From Streptomyces antibioticus (lineage in GTDB: Bacteria; Actinomycetota; Actinomycetes; Streptomycetales; Streptomycetaceae): DNA of 64,000 bases. Positions 3,202 to 11,233 of the stretch are shown here, piece by piece. Numbering within the stretch: position 1 is the first letter of the stretch; each line of letters begins with the position of its first letter. Under the pieces are notes generated by a model. It had not been told where the DNA came from. It searched no databases and saw only the letters and a list, made by a program, of their open reading frames with translations. The stretch is taken from the NCBI RefSeq assembly GCF_001514065.1, contig NZ_KQ948429.1, positions 62,001 through 126,000 on the forward strand, given 5' to 3'. A program made the position numbers and the translations under genes.

Positions 3202-3384
3202 TCAGCCGGACTGGGCGAGCAGCATCACGAGGATCGCCGCTCCTAGGCCGCCGACCATGGTGTTCTTGGCCTTGACGCCGACCGTGAGCAGGAGAAAGGC
3301 GATGATGCCCATCGGCCCCCACTTCCACTGGACGAGCTGCTCGAATCCGATGGCGAGGGCGGCGATGGCGATGGCGAACGGCAT
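3202..3384 (-). CDS. Small membrane protein A, partner of DevE-like regulator
   Basis: 60 residues, almost entirely hydrophobic, with two to three membrane segments (about 2-20, 24-40, 43-57). It carries GFEQLVQWKWG followed by LLLTVGVKAK. The same pattern recurs in the small proteins at 4517-4705 (GIEQTIQWKYG...LLLLSVGLKAK) and, more diverged, at 6532-6756. Start ATG 3384 was chosen because AGGGGGGA lies just upstream; an upstream extension to 3531 would add a non-conserved tail. The gene is divergent from the devE-like regulator, sharing a 194-bp control region with two palindromes. No known family was recognised; function unknown. Confidence 0.75.
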   Translation of the reverse strand: MPFAIAIAALAIGFEQLVQWKWGPMGIIAFLLLTVGVKAKNTMVGGLGAAILVMLLAQSG

Positions 3385-3455
3385 GACGATCCCCCCTGGG
3401 CGAAGCATTGGGCGAAGCCTGGTGTCGTGCTCGGCCTGCTGACGCCAACACCCTT

Positions 3456-3492
3456 GAACATTGACCATGTTCTGAAAGTTGGCGACCAACTT
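3456..3492. promoter_or_regulatory. Two adjacent palindromes, candidate operator for DevE/DevA-type regulators
   Basis: GAACAT-TGACC-ATGTTC (3456-3472) is followed after 3 bp by AAGTTGG-CGA-CCAACTT (3476-3492). Both are perfect 17-bp inverted repeats between the divergent small membrane gene and the devE-like gene. The second shares its core AGTTGG-N3-CCAACT with the palindrome at 4800-4814 before devA. Binding by the GntR regulator is inferred from position and recurrence. Confidence 0.6.
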
Positions 3493-3566
3493 CACTGTAG
3501 TTATCTCCGCTTGGATGCGGCTCATAACCACCTTTCCGCGAACTGCCCAAAGATGGCGGGAAGTTG

Positions 3567-3579
3567 TAGTGTTTGGTCG
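3567..3579 (+). promoter_or_regulatory. Leaderless promoter -10 of the devE-like gene
   Basis: TAGTGT (3567-3572) fits the TANNNT -10 consensus and is followed by exactly 6 bases (TTGGTC) before the GTG start at 3579. Transcription would then begin at the start codon. Identical spacing occurs at 4890-4902 and 6935-6947, supporting a leaderless mRNA. No good -35 box is visible. Confidence 0.55.
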
Positions 3580-4481
3580 TGGACCCGAAACCCGACTCCG
3601 TCAATGGGCTGGAGAAGGCGCAGCGGTCACAGAAGTCTCCTCGTGAGGTGGCGGACGAGCTGCGCTCCCGTATCCGGTCCGGTGAGCTGCGGCCGGGTCA
3701 GCGCATGCCCACCCAGGCCCGGCTGGCGGACGAGTTCGGCGTGGAGCGGGGTGCCGTACGGCAGGCCCTGCGCATCCTGCAGTCGGAGCGACTGCTCACC
3801 AACGTGTCCAAGGGCAGCCCCGCGACCGTCGCCCCCGACCTCGGCAGGGCGCTGACCGGGCCCGGAGCCCCGCCGCTGCCGACGATGGTCGCCCTCGCGC
3901 CGCGCATCGCCGCCGCCTTCGCCGCCCCGCACGTGGAGATCGACGCCCTGTGTCTGACGTCGGTCTCCTTCAACCTCGCCCTCGGCGAACCGCTGCGCCA
4001 GATCCACGCCGGACGTCTGAAACCGGCCAAGGTCGACGTGCGCGTCCTGCTGCCGAGCCGGGACATCGACCTCGCCTTCCCGATCCCCGTGGACCCCTCG
4101 ACGGACGGCAGGGTGCAGCGCCGCTGGCTGTCCCAGCGCAACGCCCAGGGCCAGGTGCTCCAGCACAATCTGCTCGCCCTGCGCGCCACCCACGGCATCG
4201 ACGTCAAGGTCACCTTCCGCGCCCTGCCCTTCACCCCGCCGGTGAAGCTGTACCTGCTCAACAACACGGAAGCGCTCTTCGCCTACTACACGCTCAGCAA
4301 GCGCGAGGAGGAGATCGACCACGAGCACCTGGTGATGTACGACGCGGAGGGCACCCAGTCGATGCTGTTCGCCTTCGATCAGGGGGCCGGGCTGCGGGAC
4401 ACCACCTTCGTCGAGCAGTCCCACCTGTGGTTCAACGCACTGTGGGAGACGATCAGTTCGGAGCTGACGCTCTCGAGCTGA
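3579..4481 (+). CDS. devE: GntR-family developmental regulator, DevE-like
   Basis: 300 residues. An N-terminal GntR winged helix (about 18-85; ADEFGVERGAVRQALRIL) is followed by a family-specific effector-type domain (about 100-300) with LLPSRDIDLAFP and FRALPFTPPVKLYLLN, the latter identical in the next regulator. In S. coelicolor the paralogues devE (SCO4188) and devA (SCO4190) sit in this order and affect aerial growth and sporulation; synteny supports devE here. The GTG at 3579 is preferred over an in-frame TTG two codons earlier because the -10 box ends 6 bases upstream. The ligand of the C-terminal domain is unknown. Confidence 0.8.
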   Translation: MDPKPDSVNGLEKAQRSQKSPREVADELRSRIRSGELRPGQRMPTQARLADEFGVERGAVRQALRILQSERLLTNVSKGSPATVAPDLGRALTGPGAPPLPTMVALAPRIAAAFAAPHVEIDALCLTSVSFNLALGEPLRQIHAGRLKPAKVDVRVLLPSRDIDLAFPIPVDPSTDGRVQRRWLSQRNAQGQVLQHNLLALRATHGIDVKVTFRALPFTPPVKLYLLNNTEALFAYYTLSKREEEIDHEHLVMYDAEGTQSMLFAFDQGAGLRDTTFVEQSHLWFNALWETISSELTLSS

Positions 4482-4516
4482 GGTCTCCCGCAGAGGTGGA
4501 TCCGGGCGGTGCCTCT

Positions 4517-4705
4517 TCATAGGGCCTGCCCCGAGACGAGGAGCGCGAGCACCACGGCACCGACGGAGCTCAGGGCCGGGCTCTTGGCCTTGAGGCCGAC
4601 GCTGAGCAGCAGCAGCCCGAGGATGCCGGCAGCGCCGTACTTCCACTGGATGGTCTGCTCGATGCCGACGACGAAGATGGCGGAGAGAAGATAGATGGCA
4701 GGCAC
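4517..4705 (-). CDS. Small membrane protein B, partner of DevA
   Basis: 62 residues, hydrophobic throughout, with segments at about 3-20, 25-41 and 45-60. GIEQTIQWKYGAAGILGLLLL and VGLKAK align closely with the protein at 3202-3384, so the two are paralogues. The start is GTG 4705, preceded by AAGGGGGAA at a normal ribosome-binding distance. It converges on the devE-like gene (stops 35 bp apart) and diverges from devA. Its pairing with a DevA-type regulator repeats the arrangement upstream. No enzymatic motif is visible; a signal-sensing or regulator-tethering role is only a guess. Confidence 0.75.
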   Translation of the reverse strand: MPAIYLLSAIFVVGIEQTIQWKYGAAGILGLLLLSVGLKAKSPALSSVGAVVLALLVSGQAL

Positions 4706-4786
4706 GGTGATTCCCCCTTAGGGCGTGAGGCGGGCATCCGGGGCGAGCGGATGTGGGGGGTTGGGCGATGAGGAGGCAAAACTTCC

Positions 4787-4814
4787 GCCAACTTGACTAA
4801 GTTGGCAACCAACT
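4787..4814. promoter_or_regulatory. Overlapping palindromes upstream of devA, candidate operator
   Basis: GCCAACTT-GACT-AAGTTGGC (4787-4806) is a perfect 20-bp inverted repeat. It overlaps AGTTGG-CAA-CCAACT (4800-4814), which matches the core of the palindrome before the devE-like gene. Further half-site-like elements follow: ACAACTC at 4851-4857 and 4862-4868, and GAGTTGT at 4884-4890 abutting the -10 box. In S. coelicolor, DevA binds its own promoter region and represses itself; these sites would explain that. Confidence 0.6.
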
Positions 4815-4889
4815 CTGCTGTACTTGTACCCACTTGGTCCTAACTCGGAAACAACTCTCCAACAACTCCCGCTAGATGGATCAGAGTTG

Positions 4890-4902
4890 TACCGTTTGGT
4901 CG
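4890..4902 (+). promoter_or_regulatory. Leaderless promoter -10 of devA
   Basis: TACCGT (4890-4895) is followed by TTGGTC and then GTG 4902. Both the -10 spacing and the 6-base spacer are the same as before the devE-like gene. The GAGTTGT half-site touches the -10 box, so bound regulator would block initiation. Confidence 0.55.
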
Positions 4903-5774
4903 TGACCCAGGAGAACGTGGCAGTGAACGGCAGCAGAAAGCTCTCGCCCCAGGAGATCGCCGACATCCTCCGGGACCGAATCCGCTCCGGCGACCTCAAG
5001 GCGGGCGACCGCCTGCCCACTCAGGCCGAACTGGCCGAGGAGTTCAACGTCGAACGCGGCACCGTCCGCCAGGCTCTGCGCGCGCTCCAGGAGGACGGCC
5101 TCCTCAGCAACGTGAGCAAGGGCAGCCCACCGCGGATCGCCGAGCCGGCCCCCGTGCGCGGCGCCCCGCAGCCGACGATGGTCGGGCTGGCCCCGCGCCT
5201 CACGGAGGCGTTCGCGGCGCCGCACGTGCGTGTGGACGTCGTCAGCCACACCTCCCAGACCCTGATGCTGGCGCTCGGCGACTCACTCCGCGGCATCCAC
5301 GAGGGCAGGATCCGCCCCGAGTCCATCGAGTTCCGCGTCCTGCTGCCGTCCCGGGACATCAACCTCGCGTTCCCGGTCTCGGTCGAACGCGACGGCGAGG
5401 CGGACCCGGTCCACCGCCGCTGGCTGGAGATACGCAACTCGCAGGCCCACGTCCTGAAGTACAACCTCAACGCCGTCCGTTCCACCCATGGCATCGACGT
5501 CAACGTCACCTTCCGGGCCCTGCCCTTCACCCCGCCGGTGAAGCTGTACCTGCTCAACGGGGACGAAGTGCTGCTCGGCTACTACATGCTCGAGCGCCGA
5601 GAGGAGGAGTACGAGAGCCAGACCCTTGAGATGTACGACGTTCTCGGCTCCCACTCCGTCCTCTTCTCCTTCCTGAGGGCGGCGGGCCAGCGCGATGCGG
5701 CGTTCGTGGCGGAATCCCAGAAGTGGTTCGACGCCCTCTGGGAAACCATCACGACGGACCTGACACTCTCCTAG
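4902..5774 (+). CDS. devA: DevA, GntR-family developmental regulator
   Basis: 290 residues with the same two-domain plan as the preceding regulator: winged helix (about 10-75; EFNVERGTVRQALRAL) and a C-terminal domain with LLPSRDINLAFP and FRALPFTPPVKLYLLN. In S. coelicolor, DevA is needed for aerial hyphae and correct septation, is autorepressed and forms an operon with devB. Here its TAG stop shares its last base with the GTG start of the downstream HAD gene, so translation is probably coupled. The GTG start at 4902 is set by the leaderless promoter geometry; longer in-frame starts upstream would run through the operator region. Confidence 0.85.
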   Translation: MTQENVAVNGSRKLSPQEIADILRDRIRSGDLKAGDRLPTQAELAEEFNVERGTVRQALRALQEDGLLSNVSKGSPPRIAEPAPVRGAPQPTMVGLAPRLTEAFAAPHVRVDVVSHTSQTLMLALGDSLRGIHEGRIRPESIEFRVLLPSRDINLAFPVSVERDGEADPVHRRWLEIRNSQAHVLKYNLNAVRSTHGIDVNVTFRALPFTPPVKLYLLNGDEVLLGYYMLERREEEYESQTLEMYDVLGSHSVLFSFLRAAGQRDAAFVAESQKWFDALWETITTDLTLS

Positions 5775-6541
5775 TGACCTCTGATACCAAGCAGACTGAT
5801 CCGATACGGACTGATCCGGCGCAGACTGTTCCGGTGGCGACAGAGACTGAGAATCTCCGGAAACTGATCACAGGGGCACGTTTCGTGCTCTTCGACTTCG
5901 ACGGCCCGATCTGCCGGCTGTTCGCGGGGCACCTGGCGGAGGACGTAGCGAAGGACCTGGTGGAGTGGCTGGCTCGGCAGGGCCTGAAAGGGCTGCTGAC
6001 TGAGGCAGAGCGCAAGCATCCGGATCCGATGGCAGTCCTGCACGCGGTCAACCTGCGTCACCCCGGGAGCGACCTGGTGACCGAACTGGAGGAGCGGCTC
6101 ACCCAGCAGGAGCTCAAAGCGGTGGACTCGGCCATGCCGACGGCGTTCGCGGATCCGGTCATTCGGACCTGGAGCGCGGTAGGCGCTCGGCTCGCCATAG
6201 CCACCAACAACTCGGCGCGCACGGCGACGGGTTATCTGGCCCAACGCGGCCTCGCGGGCTGCTTCACTCCGCACGTCTATGGCCGCACCCAGGACCTCGA
6301 ACACCTCAAGCCCCACCCGCACTGTCTCAACCAGGCCCTGAACGCCATGGGGGCCGCCCCGTCCGCCGCCCTCATGATCGGTGACGCCCCTTCGGACCTC
6401 TACGCGGCCCAACGGGCGGGGGTTCCGTTCCTGGGCTACGCGCGTAATGGGGACAAGGAGCAGGAACTGCGGAAGGCCGGGGCCAAGGATGTCGTGGGTT
6501 CCCTGGAACCGGTGCTGCGGGTGCTGCGGGGTCAGGCCTGA
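5774..6541 (+). CDS. devB: DevB, HAD-superfamily hydrolase
   Basis: 255 residues with all four HAD motifs: FDFDGP (nucleophile Asp and acid/base Asp, about residues 40-45), ATNNS (motif II), KPHPH (motif III lysine) and IGDAPSD (motif IV). The fold resembles phosphoglycolate phosphatase; the substrate is not known. devB lies downstream of devA in S. coelicolor and is also needed for aerial mycelium. Start GTG 5774 overlaps the devA stop by one base, replacing a longer in-frame extension into devA. The first 25 residues are Thr/Asp-rich and probably disordered. The 3' end overlaps the convergent small membrane gene by 10 bp. Confidence 0.85.
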   Translation: MTSDTKQTDPIRTDPAQTVPVATETENLRKLITGARFVLFDFDGPICRLFAGHLAEDVAKDLVEWLARQGLKGLLTEAERKHPDPMAVLHAVNLRHPGSDLVTELEERLTQQELKAVDSAMPTAFADPVIRTWSAVGARLAIATNNSARTATGYLAQRGLAGCFTPHVYGRTQDLEHLKPHPHCLNQALNAMGAAPSAALMIGDAPSDLYAAQRAGVPFLGYARNGDKEQELRKAGAKDVVGSLEPVLRVLRGQA

Positions 6542-6756
6542 AGGCAGAGGGCGAGGAGGGCGATCAGGAGGGCGGAAGCCCACCAGCCCGGGTGGGTGTG
6601 CAGCGTCCGCCCGAGCCATCGCGCCAACGCCCGCAGGAGCACCGGAGCCAGGGCCAGCAGGAGCAGTCCGCCCACACCGGCGAGCCCGAGCTGGGTCTGC
6701 ACCAATTGACCGATCCCGAACTGCAGGACCGCCCCCACAAGTTGGAAGAAGACCAT
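6532..6756 (-). CDS. Small membrane protein C, partner of the third DevA-type regulator
   Basis: 74 residues with hydrophobic segments at about 4-20 and 25-38, an amphipathic Arg-containing stretch (39-53) and a C-terminal hydrophobic segment (57-73). FGIGQLVQTQLGLAGVGGLLLL resembles the QLVQWKWG/LLLL pattern of the proteins at 3202-3384 and 4517-4705, so it appears to be a diverged, longer member. Start ATG 6756 has GAGGTGGG upstream. Its last 10 bp overlap the end of devB. It is divergent from the GntR gene at 6947, repeating the pairing seen twice upstream. Confidence 0.65.
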   Translation of the reverse strand: MVFFQLVGAVLQFGIGQLVQTQLGLAGVGGLLLLALAPVLLRALARWLGRTLHTHPGWWASALLIALLALCLQA

Positions 6757-6798
6757 GCCCCCACCTCGTCCACTTCAGTGAATCGATCAACTACCCGT

Positions 6799-6906
6799 CC
6801 AATTGGACTGGTCCTTGACTGAGGTCTGCCCGGCCCACTTGATCCCTTAACTGTCTAATCCGGGCCGGATATGCCAACAGGCCAATCAGGCCACCAATTT
6901 GACTGG
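6799..6906. repeat. Direct repeat CCAATT(G/T)GACTGG, candidate operator of the third pair
   Basis: The 13-mers CCAATTGGACTGG (6799-6811) and CCAATTTGACTGG (6894-6906) differ at one base and lie 95 bp apart between the divergent membrane gene and the third GntR gene. The first contains the palindrome CCAATTGG. They resemble the CCAACT half-site of the devE/devA operators but are diverged. Confidence 0.5.
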
Positions 6907-6934
6907 AAGCGGTTTGTCGGCGGGCGGTGCGAGG

Positions 6935-6947
6935 TACGGTCGCGATG
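6935..6947 (+). promoter_or_regulatory. Leaderless promoter -10 of the third GntR gene
   Basis: TACGGT (6935-6940) is followed by 6 bases (CGCGAT) and GTG 6947, the same geometry as the two paralogues. TTGTCG at 6914-6919 is a possible -35 with a short 15-bp spacer. Confidence 0.5.
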
Positions 6948-7855
6948 TGAGCGAAGAGCGCGGCGACGGTGGCGGGACCGAGTTCGAACGTGTCCTGTCG
7001 AGCCTGCGCGCTCGCATCGCCGACGGAACGTACTGGGTAGGCGCTCAGCTCCCCCCACAGCGCGAACTCGCCGACGAGTTCCAGGTCTCCCGCGACACCG
7101 TCCAGCGCGTCATACGCGAACTCGGCAACGAGGGCTGGATCAAGTCCCGTCAGGGCAGCGGAACGCGTGTCGTGAAGAGCCCGACCCACGCGGGCTCGCC
7201 ACCGCCCAAACAAGAGGCCACACGGGTGCGTGCGGCGCTCGGCACCTTCATAGCGCGGGCCTTCACGCAGCCGGTCGTACGACTGGATGTGTTCACTCTG
7301 ACGTCCGAGTCCCTGGACGCTCACATACGGCTGCAGGCTGAGCGCATCCGGCTCGGAGAAATCCAGCCCCACCAGATCGAACTGCGCATGCTGCTGCCCT
7401 CGGAGTCGCTGGACCTGCCCTACCCCCGTGCCAAGAAGCCGGATGCCGGGGAGGGGGCGCATGAACCAGCCCAACTGGACCGGTTGCAGGAGCGGTTGCG
7501 CGCCATCACGCGCCGGCACACGACCTCGCTGCGTGTCGCGCTGCGGGATCTGAAGACGGAAGGCCTGGTGCCGGAAGTCGATGTGCAGATTCGGTATGTG
7601 CCGTTGGCCCCGGCGTTCAAGCTGTACCTGCGTCCCGGTGTCGAAGCACTGTTCGGGCCGTATGAAGTGCTGGAGCGCACCATCATGCTGGACGACGGAA
7701 CCGAGGTCGAAGCCAAGGACGTCCTCGGGCTGGGGTCGACGCTGACCCGTCATGTCAACGACGAGGGCGACCCCGACTCTCCGGGCTCTGTGTTCATGGA
7801 GAGCATGCAGGCATGGTTCGACTCATGCTGGGGTCTCCTCGCCGAAACCCCTTGA
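6947..7855 (+). CDS. Third DevA-type GntR regulator
   Basis: 302 residues. A GntR winged helix (about 8-80; DEFQVSRDTVQRVIRELG) precedes the same C-terminal domain type as DevE/DevA, but diverged: ARAFTQPVVRLDVFTLTSES, LLPSESLDLPYP and YVPLAPAFKLYL correspond to blocks in those proteins. The terminal MQAWFDSCW matches their HLWFNALW/QKWFDALW end. Start GTG 6947 fits the leaderless geometry; an in-frame ATG at 6899 lies inside the second operator-like repeat. It could be an older duplicate in the devA family or a regulator acquired with the following two genes. The target genes are unknown. Confidence 0.75.
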   Translation: MSEERGDGGGTEFERVLSSLRARIADGTYWVGAQLPPQRELADEFQVSRDTVQRVIRELGNEGWIKSRQGSGTRVVKSPTHAGSPPPKQEATRVRAALGTFIARAFTQPVVRLDVFTLTSESLDAHIRLQAERIRLGEIQPHQIELRMLLPSESLDLPYPRAKKPDAGEGAHEPAQLDRLQERLRAITRRHTTSLRVALRDLKTEGLVPEVDVQIRYVPLAPAFKLYLRPGVEALFGPYEVLERTIMLDDGTEVEAKDVLGLGSTLTRHVNDEGDPDSPGSVFMESMQAWFDSCWGLLAETP

Positions 7856-8034: not shown

Positions 8035-10266
8035 GTGGGCATTGCGCCACTGCCCGGTCTCCGCGCGCTGGAAAAGGCGGAGGACACCAGGTACGACGAG
8101 TTCGTGCGCTACGCGCGGGCCCTGGGATCGTTCGGACGTGGTCACCACAACCTGAACTACATGGTGCGCCCACTGACGATCGGCCACTCCAGCCTTGTGG
8201 GATGTGAGAACGGGCAGGCGGTCACGGTACGGTTCCGGATCCCCGAAGCACTGCCCGTGGTCATCAGGACGTGGCAGGACGAGGCCGGCCTCCTCAACAG
8301 GATCCGCCGCCATCTCCCACAGGTACCGGAGTGCCTGGTCAAGCGCGACGACATGGTGATCCTCAGCTATGTGGAGGGGGTGCCGCTCTCCAGCATCTGC
8401 CCGAACGGCAAGCCGGTCGACACCGATCTCATCGCGGCCCTCGCCAACCTTTTCGCGGACATGACGCAGGTGCGCAGACAGCATCTGCCTCCCCTGCCGG
8501 AAGCCTGGCCGCGGTCCAGCCGGAACAGTAATGCTTACCTGCGGACGCTGGCATTCTCGGCGGAGGAGCAGATCCGGCGGCGTAACTGGAGGAAGTTCGG
8601 CGGCCTGTTCGCGATGCTGGGCATCCCCGAGGACGCGATGACGCGGTTCGCGGAGCGGGCGCCGGCACTGAAGAAGCGTCCCTACAGCCTGCTGCACACG
8701 GATCTGCACCGGGACAACGTCATCGTCTCCTACCACGGTGATCCGCCCCTGATCTGTGTCGACTGGGAACTGGCCTCCTTCGGGGACCCCTTGCACGACC
8801 TCGCCACCCACCTCGTGCGGATGCAGTACCCCGCCTACCAATGGCAGGAGGTGATCGATGCGTGGCGCAAGGCGATGAGTAATCGGAACAGCAATGCCGT
8901 AGAAGGCCTCGACCGCGATCTGAAGCACTACATCGCCTTCGAGTACGCCCAGTCCGTCTACCCGGACGTGATGCGTGCCGCGACCTCGCTCGGTGATCCC
9001 TTCGACCAGCGTGACCTTGATGCCGCGGTGCACGCGGTACACCGCGCTCTGGCCTCCGCCGAGGAGCCGCTGCGGCTGAAAAGAGTGCCGGACAAGGGCG
9101 AGATCGAACGCACGCTCTTCCGGTGGAACGAGTCCCATGGCGTGAAGGCGAGTCGGGGCAGGACGCCGCTCCAGATCGTCTGGAAGCAGGATCACCGGGT
9201 CACACTGCGTGGGGACTTTCCCGCGGAGGCGGTGAGTGAGGCACTGTGCGCGGAGGGCGCCGCTTCCGCAGACCGGGTGTTCAAGGGGACGGCACATCTG
9301 AACACCGCGGTCGAGGTCCCGGGGGTTCCGTTCCCGGTGATGGTCCGTCGCAAGGTCGGCGGGGCGAACCCACGGGAACGCCGGTTCCTGAACGAGCACG
9401 CCGTGCTGAACGCGATCGAACGGTCTCAGGTCGCGGTGCGTGCTCCACGTGCGCTGGCCCTCGGTACGAGCGGTCTGGACGAAGCGTTCACCATTCATTC
9501 CTACGAGGGTTCGAGCCAGGAGATCAGACCCCCGGACCACCCCGAGCACGGGCTGACGCCGCACGAGGCGGACGATCTCGTGGATCAACTGGCTGCCCTG
9601 ACACAGGTCGACTGCGCCGAGCTGGACCCGATAGCGGGGGTGGACTTCTACTGGGAGTTGCAGTACGAGCTGGTCCGGATGGTGAACGAACTCCCGAAAG
9701 CGACCTCGGAAGTGGCCCGCGAACTGGGGTTGCCCAGCAGCTATCGGCTGTTGGAGATCCTGGAGCGCCGCACCGTGGTTCCACGTCGGCCGGCCCTCCT
9801 GCACGGCGACCTGAATCCATGGAACCTGGTCCGTCGTGAGGGGGGAGGTCTGACACTCATCGACTGGGAGATGGCGATGATCGGCGACCCTTTGTACGAC
9901 CTGGTCCGCCATATCCATCTCACCCCCACGCGCCCCGAGATCCGCGATCGCATGTACCGCCGCTGGTACCGCTCGCTGCCGGAGGAGTACACCAAGGGCT
10001 GGTACGACGACTGGCGGGTGTACCGGTGGATGGAGATCGTCCGCTCGGCCTACGTGGACCTGGACCGTCTGGTGACCGCGGACAGCCTGGAGGCCCCCAA
10101 CGTCCGCCGAGCGGTCGACGCGTATTCGAGGACCCTGGCGGATGCCACGGCGGCCCTCGGCCTCCCCGACCGGCGGACCAGGCCCGCGAACCCCTATCTT
10201 GCCCGCGCGTTCATGCGCCGGGACGATGGGGAGGCACAGACAGTCGGGGTCTCCGCGGACATGTGA
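8035..10266 (+). CDS. Tandem APH-type kinase, two complete kinase domains
   Basis: 743 residues with two aminoglycoside-phosphotransferase-fold domains. The first has HTDLHRDN (about residue 221) and VDWELASFGDP (about 241). The second has LHGDLNPWN (about 588) and IDWEMAMIGDP (about 608). Both therefore keep the catalytic Asp, the Asn and the Mg-binding Asp. The stretch 360-470 begins the second N-lobe. Such kinases phosphorylate small hydroxylated molecules (drugs, choline, sugars); the target cannot be deduced. Start GTG 8035 follows AGGAG at 8024-8028. It probably forms an operon with the membrane protein 52 bp downstream and follows the third GntR regulator. Confidence 0.75.
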   Translation: MGIAPLPGLRALEKAEDTRYDEFVRYARALGSFGRGHHNLNYMVRPLTIGHSSLVGCENGQAVTVRFRIPEALPVVIRTWQDEAGLLNRIRRHLPQVPECLVKRDDMVILSYVEGVPLSSICPNGKPVDTDLIAALANLFADMTQVRRQHLPPLPEAWPRSSRNSNAYLRTLAFSAEEQIRRRNWRKFGGLFAMLGIPEDAMTRFAERAPALKKRPYSLLHTDLHRDNVIVSYHGDPPLICVDWELASFGDPLHDLATHLVRMQYPAYQWQEVIDAWRKAMSNRNSNAVEGLDRDLKHYIAFEYAQSVYPDVMRAATSLGDPFDQRDLDAAVHAVHRALASAEEPLRLKRVPDKGEIERTLFRWNESHGVKASRGRTPLQIVWKQDHRVTLRGDFPAEAVSEALCAEGAASADRVFKGTAHLNTAVEVPGVPFPVMVRRKVGGANPRERRFLNEHAVLNAIERSQVAVRAPRALALGTSGLDEAFTIHSYEGSSQEIRPPDHPEHGLTPHEADDLVDQLAALTQVDCAELDPIAGVDFYWELQYELVRMVNELPKATSEVARELGLPSSYRLLEILERRTVVPRRPALLHGDLNPWNLVRREGGGLTLIDWEMAMIGDPLYDLVRHIHLTPTRPEIRDRMYRRWYRSLPEEYTKGWYDDWRVYRWMEIVRSAYVDLDRLVTADSLEAPNVRRAVDAYSRTLADATAALGLPDRRTRPANPYLARAFMRRDDGEAQTVGVSADM

Positions 10267-10318: not shown

Positions 10319-11233
10319 ATGTCCGCTGGGGGGAGCAGGCCGAGCGCTGATGGTGTGGGTGAGCACCTGAGGCGCATCCAGTCCCGGTACGAACCGGCGT
10401 TCATACGCCTCCTGCTGCTGGCGATTTTCGCCACGGGCCTGATAGCCCAGTTCGTGAAGCCGGTTGGCGACGCTGTGGAGGACAAGGCGTTTCTCGGCGG
10501 CGCCTTGCTCAGCCTCGTCGGTTACGTGTTGTACGACACCATCAAGGACCTGGCGACGACGCTCCGGCGGCCACCACGCGTCCAGGTCGAGTCGCGAGAG
10601 CTCGGAACCTTCGTGGCGGAAGCCTTTCGCGCCCGGGAAGTGGAGATCCGCTTCCTCGGCTACACCGGGGAGACACTCTGCGGCGAACTCTTCCACCACC
10701 TTGAGCGCCTTCTTGAGGACCCCGGCCCCACCAGGCACGTGTCCGTCCGAGTCCTGATCCCTGACTTCGGGCAGCCGATGACCGTGCCCTCGCGAGTGGG
10801 GGAGGACGGGGCGCCGGTGGACGATGCAGATTTCCGAAAGCGCCTGGAGCTCAAGTGCCGGGAGTACGACGAGAACCTCGTGGCCCTTGAGGAGCGACTC
10901 AACGCGCTGGGAAGGGTCACCGCCGAGTGCGAGTACCGGGTGTATCCGGGCATCCCCAGGGACAAGGTCTGCATCTTCAACCGGGAGCTGGTGCTGCACG
11001 GCCTCTACAACGTCGCGGCGCGCAGCATGCCGCGCAGTGGGGGTCCCGAGTTCTACGACCCCAAGGGGTACCGTACCGATCTCAGCGTTTCGTCCCGAGG
11101 CGCAGGTGACGATGCCAGGGCCCTCGTGGCCACGTGGAGCAAGCACCTCGACGACCTGTGGAGCCTGTCGCCGAAACCGGGCTGGCGACGCGGGCCGACG
11201 CTGACTCCGTCTCCCGCGCCGACACCGACGTAG
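10319..11233 (+). CDS. Membrane-anchored protein with a DevA-type C-terminal domain
   Basis: 304 residues. Two membrane segments (about 28-46 and 58-73) replace the DNA-binding domain, and residues 95-300 resemble the C-terminal domain of the three GntR regulators: LGTFVAEAFRAREVEIRFLGYT, VSVRVLIPDF, then a helical insert, then KVCIFNRELVLHGLYNV and WSKHLDDLW at the end. The first membrane segment (ATGLIAQFV) resembles the small membrane partners (AIGFEQLVQ). So the protein looks like a fusion of the two halves that are separate elsewhere in the island. Start ATG 10319 has GAAGGGG at 10306-10312. No catalytic motif was recognised. Confidence 0.65.
   Translation: MSAGGSRPSADGVGEHLRRIQSRYEPAFIRLLLLAIFATGLIAQFVKPVGDAVEDKAFLGGALLSLVGYVLYDTIKDLATTLRRPPRVQVESRELGTFVAEAFRAREVEIRFLGYTGETLCGELFHHLERLLEDPGPTRHVSVRVLIPDFGQPMTVPSRVGEDGAPVDDADFRKRLELKCREYDENLVALEERLNALGRVTAECEYRVYPGIPRDKVCIFNRELVLHGLYNVAARSMPRSGGPEFYDPKGYRTDLSVSSRGAGDDARALVATWSKHLDDLWSLSPKPGWRRGPTLTPSPAPTPT

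Follow-up and report, generated by a model that had tools for sequence, protein, structure and literature searches.

Three GntR-type regulators of the DevA kind, encoded in a 64,000-nucleotide stretch of Streptomyces antibioticus DNA (contig NZ_KQ948429.1; hereafter the window), are each divergent from a gene for a hydrophobic protein of 60-74 residues, and with moderate confidence we regard this small protein as a sigma-driven membrane output that is repressed by its regulator, and not as the regulator's sensing partner. The regulators are devE, devA and a third, R3, and the small proteins facing them are S1, S2 and S3, respectively (Table 1). In the proposed two-key gate, a DevA-type GntR repressor would occupy a palindrome that covers the region where the divergent S gene starts, and SigB-family sigma factors of stress and sporulation (SigF/H/N for the devA-linked S2) would read the promoter of that gene; S would be made only with such a sigma factor active and the repressor released. 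By analogy with TrmB, the C-terminal domain of the repressor may be a catalytically dead phospholipase D (PLD)-like fold that reads a small ligand, and a paralogue, M, would keep this ligand-reading domain anchored to the membrane. Because a phosphatase (devB) and a kinase are linked to the regulators, a phosphorylated metabolite or a lipid head group is the suggested ligand, or else one on which these enzymes may act. In S. coelicolor, devA is SCO4190, devE is SCO4188 and devB encodes a phosphatase co-transcribed with devA; devA and devE are needed for normal Streptomyces sporulation, devA mutants form aberrant aerial hyphae, and devA is negatively autoregulated (PMC3187754). This paper, like PMC2000904 and PMC8346170 below, is cited from excerpts, and the excerpt gives no ligand of DevA or DevE and no target beyond devA-devB.

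The small proteins and their pairing with the regulators

Within the window set, S1 and S2 match each other in BLASTP (E 5e-13 or 5e-6, depending on direction), S3 matches S1 only at E ~1 and S3 has no match to S2; S3 enters the family by profile search, in which it is linked to S2 at E 3.7e-8, and the same profile also recovers the S genes at related loci. As homologous small open reading frames (ORFs) divergent from DevA-type genes, all belong to the devC small-protein family, devC being the name already given to the small hypothetical protein divergent from devA (PMC3187754). The initial annotation, whose six ORFs were all recovered in place, was right that the small proteins are one family whose pairing is conserved and whose similarity survives profile comparison; the shared QLVQ(W) pattern that it described does not stand in that form, as S2 reads QTIQW and S3 lacks the W. 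Two glycines are invariant in 41 aligned members. The GC contents at codon positions 1, 2 and 3 (0.61-0.74/0.37-0.41/0.87-0.94) and the median ratios of nonsynonymous to synonymous substitution rates (dN/dS, 0.40-0.66; up to 600 random pairs per class) indicate that S is protein-coding. There was no significant match to known families (best E 0.021 in Pfam, 0.12 in NCBIfam and 0.072 in PHROGs; none in PADLOC) and, as the initial annotation had also supposed, no role is assigned to S in the literature searched. SCO4187, a putative membrane protein (6268 Da) marked as down in a list of genes whose transcription differs in the absence of bldA (PMC2000904), is, judging from its locus number, probably the S beside devE.

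Conservation was scored in 81 loci, comprising the best 80 of 130 loci from a scan of genome contigs plus the window, a set biased to R3-bearing Streptomyces because the scan query was R3-type. With S counted when divergent from and <=400 bp from a regulator, and four fragments left out of the locus counts, S was present at 78 of 80 devA, 47 of 77 devE and 59 of 87 R3 genes, and missing beside 30 devE and 28 R3 genes. Three of these 28 R3 genes have a small hydrophobic ORF in the right place that does not match S (L124, L151 and L142). In the excerpt of PMC3187754, S. sviceus and S. coelicolor are the only species that keep a devC-like gene next to devE; since it was found at 47 of 77 devE genes, it is commoner than published, with the bias of the sample applying to this figure. 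At 17 loci from outside the genus, no S was seen next to the regulator; 15 of these come from a class-wide sample of 394 genomes (two of the 15 on contigs of 3-6 kb), and the other two are L054 and L058. The pairing initially expected for most devA homologues thus holds within the genus and fails outside it. In 150 Streptomyces genomes, the co-occurrence that had been proposed for scoring is strong, with 84 genomes having both S and the regulator domain, one S only, 18 the domain only and 47 neither (Fisher p 9e-23, related genomes being counted as independent). The regulator is more widely spread than S in these samples: the domain is present in 102 of the 150 genomes and S in 85, and in the class sample the domain occurs in 44 of 394 genomes (29 of 40 Streptomyces genomes and 15 of the 354 others).

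A tree of 102 S proteins (34 per class, out of 184), in which columns are few, R3 branches long and inner forks weak, contains three clades (support 94, 99 and 86) that match the class of the partner, with two changes, the minimum, against a shuffled mean of 48.9. The three S clades correspond to the three regulator classes, and therefore the module was duplicated as a unit; the 'independent copies' of the initial annotation are instead paralogous duplications of the whole module. S has since been lost or gained repeatedly, with nine state changes on the devE tree (at least five forced by well supported branches) and 19 on the R3 tree (at least ten so forced).

Several loci depart from the usual arrangement. 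At L232:4283-4543 a lone intact S lies between the flanking genes of the cluster, the rest of which is gone, and a search of that genome for the DevA-type domain gave no match. At L057:4368-5432 and L059:8678-8980, devA is lost and S is retained, divergent from devB with R3 downstream; between these two S genes dN/dS is 0.36 on few changes. At L235:3916-4522 a second S, closest to S1, lies in tandem behind S2 beside a single devA, and the 8 kb covered contain no devE.

The joint duplication seen in the three matching clades and the co-occurrence within the genus would also suit a partnership in which S, as a membrane subunit, binds the regulator C-terminal domain, tethering it or relaying a membrane signal. 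Distances of S3 and R3 correlate (0.61; partial 0.56), and M shows that the same domain can join a membrane hairpin. This idea, the one put forward in the initial annotation, nevertheless appears rather unlikely, as S is often missing where the regulator is present (beside devE and R3 genes, at the 17 loci outside the genus and in 18 of the 102 Streptomyces genomes that have the domain), S occurs without the usual regulator adjoining (L232, L057/L059 and L235), and the M hairpin shows no homology to S in profile comparison (hhalign probability 0.18 vs 0.27 reversed). Distances of S1 and devE give no cognate signal (rho -0.10), those of S2 and devA correlate weakly (0.26) and below S2 with devE (0.49), and S3 correlates also with devB (0.52); physical co-evolution of S1 with devE and of S2 with devA is thus not supported by distance correlation. 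We give very little credence to a toxin pair, in which S would harm the membrane and the regulator would keep it off as in an addiction system. A small hydrophobic product does lie beside a dedicated regulator, and the aberrant aerial hyphae of devA mutants could reflect derepressed S (PMC3187754), but S is kept at L232 in a genome without a match to the regulator domain, stands in tandem at L235, and matches nothing significantly in the four family databases named above.

Promoters and palindromes facing the small genes

The reading of S as a repressed, sigma-driven output is based chiefly on the intergenic regions. A SigB-type promoter lies on the S strand in 71 of 78 devA-S2 regions, and a looser SigB-like promoter in 53 of 59 R3-S3 regions. 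When compared with the SigF/H/N consensus (GTTT-type -35 and GGGNA-type -10), the window promoter of S2 agrees, that of S3 agrees in part (GTTA -35) and the element facing S1 has diverged (GGAGAT). The commonest devA-S2 hexamers, GTTTAT and GGGGAC (36 of 78), are those of SCO4189p, given as SigF/H/N-dependent in S. coelicolor (PMC8346170); we infer that SCO4189 is devC, because its number falls between those of devE and devA and the hexamers match. The S2 promoter therefore resembles the SigF/H/N promoters of that study, but SCO4189 is not tied to devA or to a palindrome in the excerpt. The palindrome AGTTGG-N3-CCAACT starts 11 bp below the -10 box in 61 of 62 devA and 38 of 38 devE regions with both elements, and the R3 core TCCAATTGGA lies 18-21 bp below it in 38 of 39 regions; median distances from palindrome to regulator start are 79, 103 and 115.5 bp (class medians only). 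Within one mismatch of AGTCCAATTGGACT, the R3/S3 palindrome is the only place in its own genome, and the candidate R3 binding motif is written GTCCAATTGGAC. With a promoter and a palindrome over its start, S looks like a regulated gene, and the palindrome like a putative operator. In a separate, more diverged set of loci, of 10 regulators that have S, 8 have the strict promoter and 8 the palindrome, and of 26 that lack S, none has the strict promoter and 1 has the palindrome; these loci are related to each other, and many of the 26 are outside the genus.

Several observations weigh against a repressed, sigma-driven S. The selective constraint on S is just moderate (dN/dS 0.40-0.66). The element facing S1 has a poor -10 (GGAGAT), and the GGG form of the -10 is not enriched there (7 of 47; shuffles mean 5.5). 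At devE, the palindrome is present in 47 of 47 regions with S and 29 of 30 without, the SigB-like element in 38 of 47 and 29 of 30, and the block of promoter and palindrome with its 11-bp spacing is intact in 29 of the 30 regions without S, so that it cannot exist for S alone. That this block outlives S despite several separate losses is unexplained by a gate on S: it may serve devE itself, the losses may be recent, or it may drive an unannotated transcript. The looser promoter is likewise kept in 20 of 28 R3 regions without S, and both promoter and palindrome are gone at the intact S genes of L232, L057 and L059. The two-plasmid test behind SCO4189p was performed in E. coli (PMC8346170), and the palindromes were derived from alignment of relatives, not from footprinting. 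Genome-wide counts are uninformative, since the exact palindrome, sought as a sign of a wider DevA regulon, has two copies and a reversed control pattern also has two.

The block kept without S at devE, and the intact S genes without a palindrome, favour the alternative in which S acts autonomously, as a small membrane stress protein tied to the regulator through history, and the palindrome serves only autoregulation of the regulator. This seems improbable to us, as at devA and devE a constant 11 bp separates the palindrome from the S promoter while the median distance of the palindrome from the regulator start varies by class, and in the separate set the SigB-type promoter goes with the presence of S. 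Repression of S by its regulator would thus remain our preferred account of the layout. As devA and devE share the palindrome, cross-talk between them is possible, but it has been argued against from transcript data (PMC3187754). The S1-like gene of L235 retains the palindrome common to devE and devA, and devA is still present there.

Table 1. Features of the window that are discussed in the text.
Feature	Position	Strand	Basis
S1, 60-amino-acid hydrophobic protein (devC-like), divergent from devE	3202..3384	-	S-family profile E 6.8e-23
devE/S1 palindrome AGTTGG-N3-CCAACT, candidate operator	3477..3491	.	
SigB-like element facing S1, GTTATG-N14-GGAGAT, diverged -10, weak assignment	3503..3528	-	
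devE-type GntR regulator with predicted PLD-like C-terminal domain	3579..4481	+	ORF, sequence match
S2, 62-amino-acid hydrophobic protein (devC), divergent from devA	4517..4705	-	profile E 1.6e-26
devA/S2 palindrome AGTTGG-N3-CCAACT, candidate operator, 11 bp below S2 -10 box	4800..4814	.	
SigB-type promoter facing S2, GTTTCC-N15-GGGTAC	4826..4852	-	
devA-type GntR regulator	4902..5774	+	ORF; AlphaFold model, mean predicted local distance difference test score (pLDDT) 90.8
Predicted PLD-like domain of devA, degenerate HKD site	5181..5753	+	structure model and sequence
devB, HAD-type phosphatase/hydrolase, 3' of devA	5786..6541	+	Pfam PF00702 E 1.1e-17
S3, 74-amino-acid hydrophobic protein, divergent from R3	6532..6756	-	profile E 3.7e-8 (S2-seeded), 7.8e-13 (S3-seeded)
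R3/S3 palindrome CGTCCAATTGGACT, core TCCAATTGGA, candidate operator	6796..6809	.	
SigB-like promoter facing S3, GTTAAG-N14-GGGCAG	6826..6851	-	
R3, third DevA-type GntR regulator	6947..7855	+	ORF, profile match
743-amino-acid protein, two APH-type kinase stretches, between R3 and M	8035..10266	+	Pfam PF01636 E 1.4e-42
M, predicted membrane hairpin fused to PLD-like domain	10319..11233	+	sequence, hydropathy, model

The regulator C-terminal domain and its membrane paralogue

All three regulators have the GntR DNA-binding domain (PF00392, E 7e-17, 4e-18 and 2e-20) and, as first annotated, a common C-terminal domain, which is also present in M and places them in the DevA subfamily; devA itself has in addition devB downstream and devC divergent. 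Identities in BLASTP (window set) are 58% for devE/devA, 33% for devA/R3 and 31% for devE/R3. The C-terminal domain is predicted from structure models to adopt the alpha/beta fold of the PLD superfamily without the catalytic His and Asp. Active PLD enzymes carry an HxKx4D catalytic motif; in a sequence alignment of the domains, His is found at K-2 in 0 of 331 domains (3 gaps) and Asp at K+5 in 1 of 331 (2 gaps), and an HxKx4D string occurs anywhere in just 6 of 331. A sequence relation to a solved structure was sought, and the one match, to a frataxin-like protein at E 0.81, was taken as chance. Because the DNA-binding domain filled most rows of the structure-match lists for the devA model, M was modelled next; its matches were headed by FAM83B by Z and by MITD1 in Foldseek (identity 12-16% over the aligned part), and the Foldseek list also has RadA-type chains at E 0.009 and worse. 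FAM83B and MITD1, which we take to be PLD-like proteins without or beyond phospholipase activity, are similar in fold to the M domain but, unlike DevA, are not known to be transcription regulators. The HutC/UTRA and FadR regulators share the GntR DNA-binding domain, and the devA model aligns with them over that domain alone; their C-terminal folds differ from that of DevA. The archaeal TrmB has a similar PLD-like effector domain, which reads sugars, but DevA differs in having a GntR-type DNA-binding domain, and sequence search linked the DevA effector domain to no solved structure. The domains of the TrmB family are PF01978 (DNA-binding) and PF11495 (effector) (PMC4158304). The former stays below its 25.6-bit cut-off (15.1 for devA and 20.4 for R3) and the latter is not among the matches listed for the window regulators, so that the likeness to TrmB is one of fold only.

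M matches devA in BLASTP at E 4e-11 (small set) and the domain profile at E 3.9e-52, and its hydropathy suggests one or two membrane helices, depending on the member. M-type proteins occur in 28 of the 81 loci, with 24 (two of them fragments) on the + strand as in the window and four on the - strand, the latter being distant (27-31% identity), and S stands beside M at none of the 28. The possibility that S is a detached M hairpin was rejected, since the S profile against 31 M N-termini gave an hhalign probability of 0.18 (score 10.3) and the reversed control gave more (0.27; score 11.3); a column-shuffled control was noisy, with 3 of 40 giving odd scores near 130. Outside the genus, an M-type protein with two predicted membrane helices and the domain was found at L192:741-1496.

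More speculatively, dead PLD-like domains may be sensors of phospholipids or phospho-metabolites which, as a soluble repressor and a membrane-anchored form, gate sporulation-sigma-driven micro membrane proteins, with three duplicated gates timing successive hyphal membrane changes in aerial growth and septation. We hold this extension as doubtful; if true, such timing would explain the devA and devE phenotypes. More generally, the combination of devC with a putative PLD-like pseudoenzyme sensor, a precisely placed palindrome and a SigF/H/N-type promoter provides a target that can be tested, points to a candidate class of ligand and opens a way toward explaining the devA/devE mutant phenotypes; it would also represent a bacterial GntR version of the TrmB plan.

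Linked genes and other DevA-like loci

The window resembles the S. coelicolor dev locus in its DevA/DevE GntR paralogues, with devB downstream of devA and devC divergent from it, but no fold, sigma-type promoter, palindrome or membrane paralogue is given for that locus in the excerpt (PMC3187754). Gene order, with the names of flanking genes assigned by eye, is deacylase - 1087 ORF - GNAT - S|devE - S|devA-devB - S|R3 - double kinase - (M) - TetR - helicase. devB follows devA and not devE or R3; it lies within 3202..7855, and the double kinase and M lie beyond that span. A devB relative is present in 81 of 81 loci, the kinase in 77 and GNAT in 76, some loci being incomplete. Outside the dev cluster, at L062:3657-4889 (genome G007), a further DevA-like protein is 42% identical to devA over residues 31-289, and an S was looked for beside it and not found. 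At L234:5495-7455, in one genome, devA and devE are both interrupted in the assembled sequence near residues 150-190, whether by a real change or by an assembly fault.

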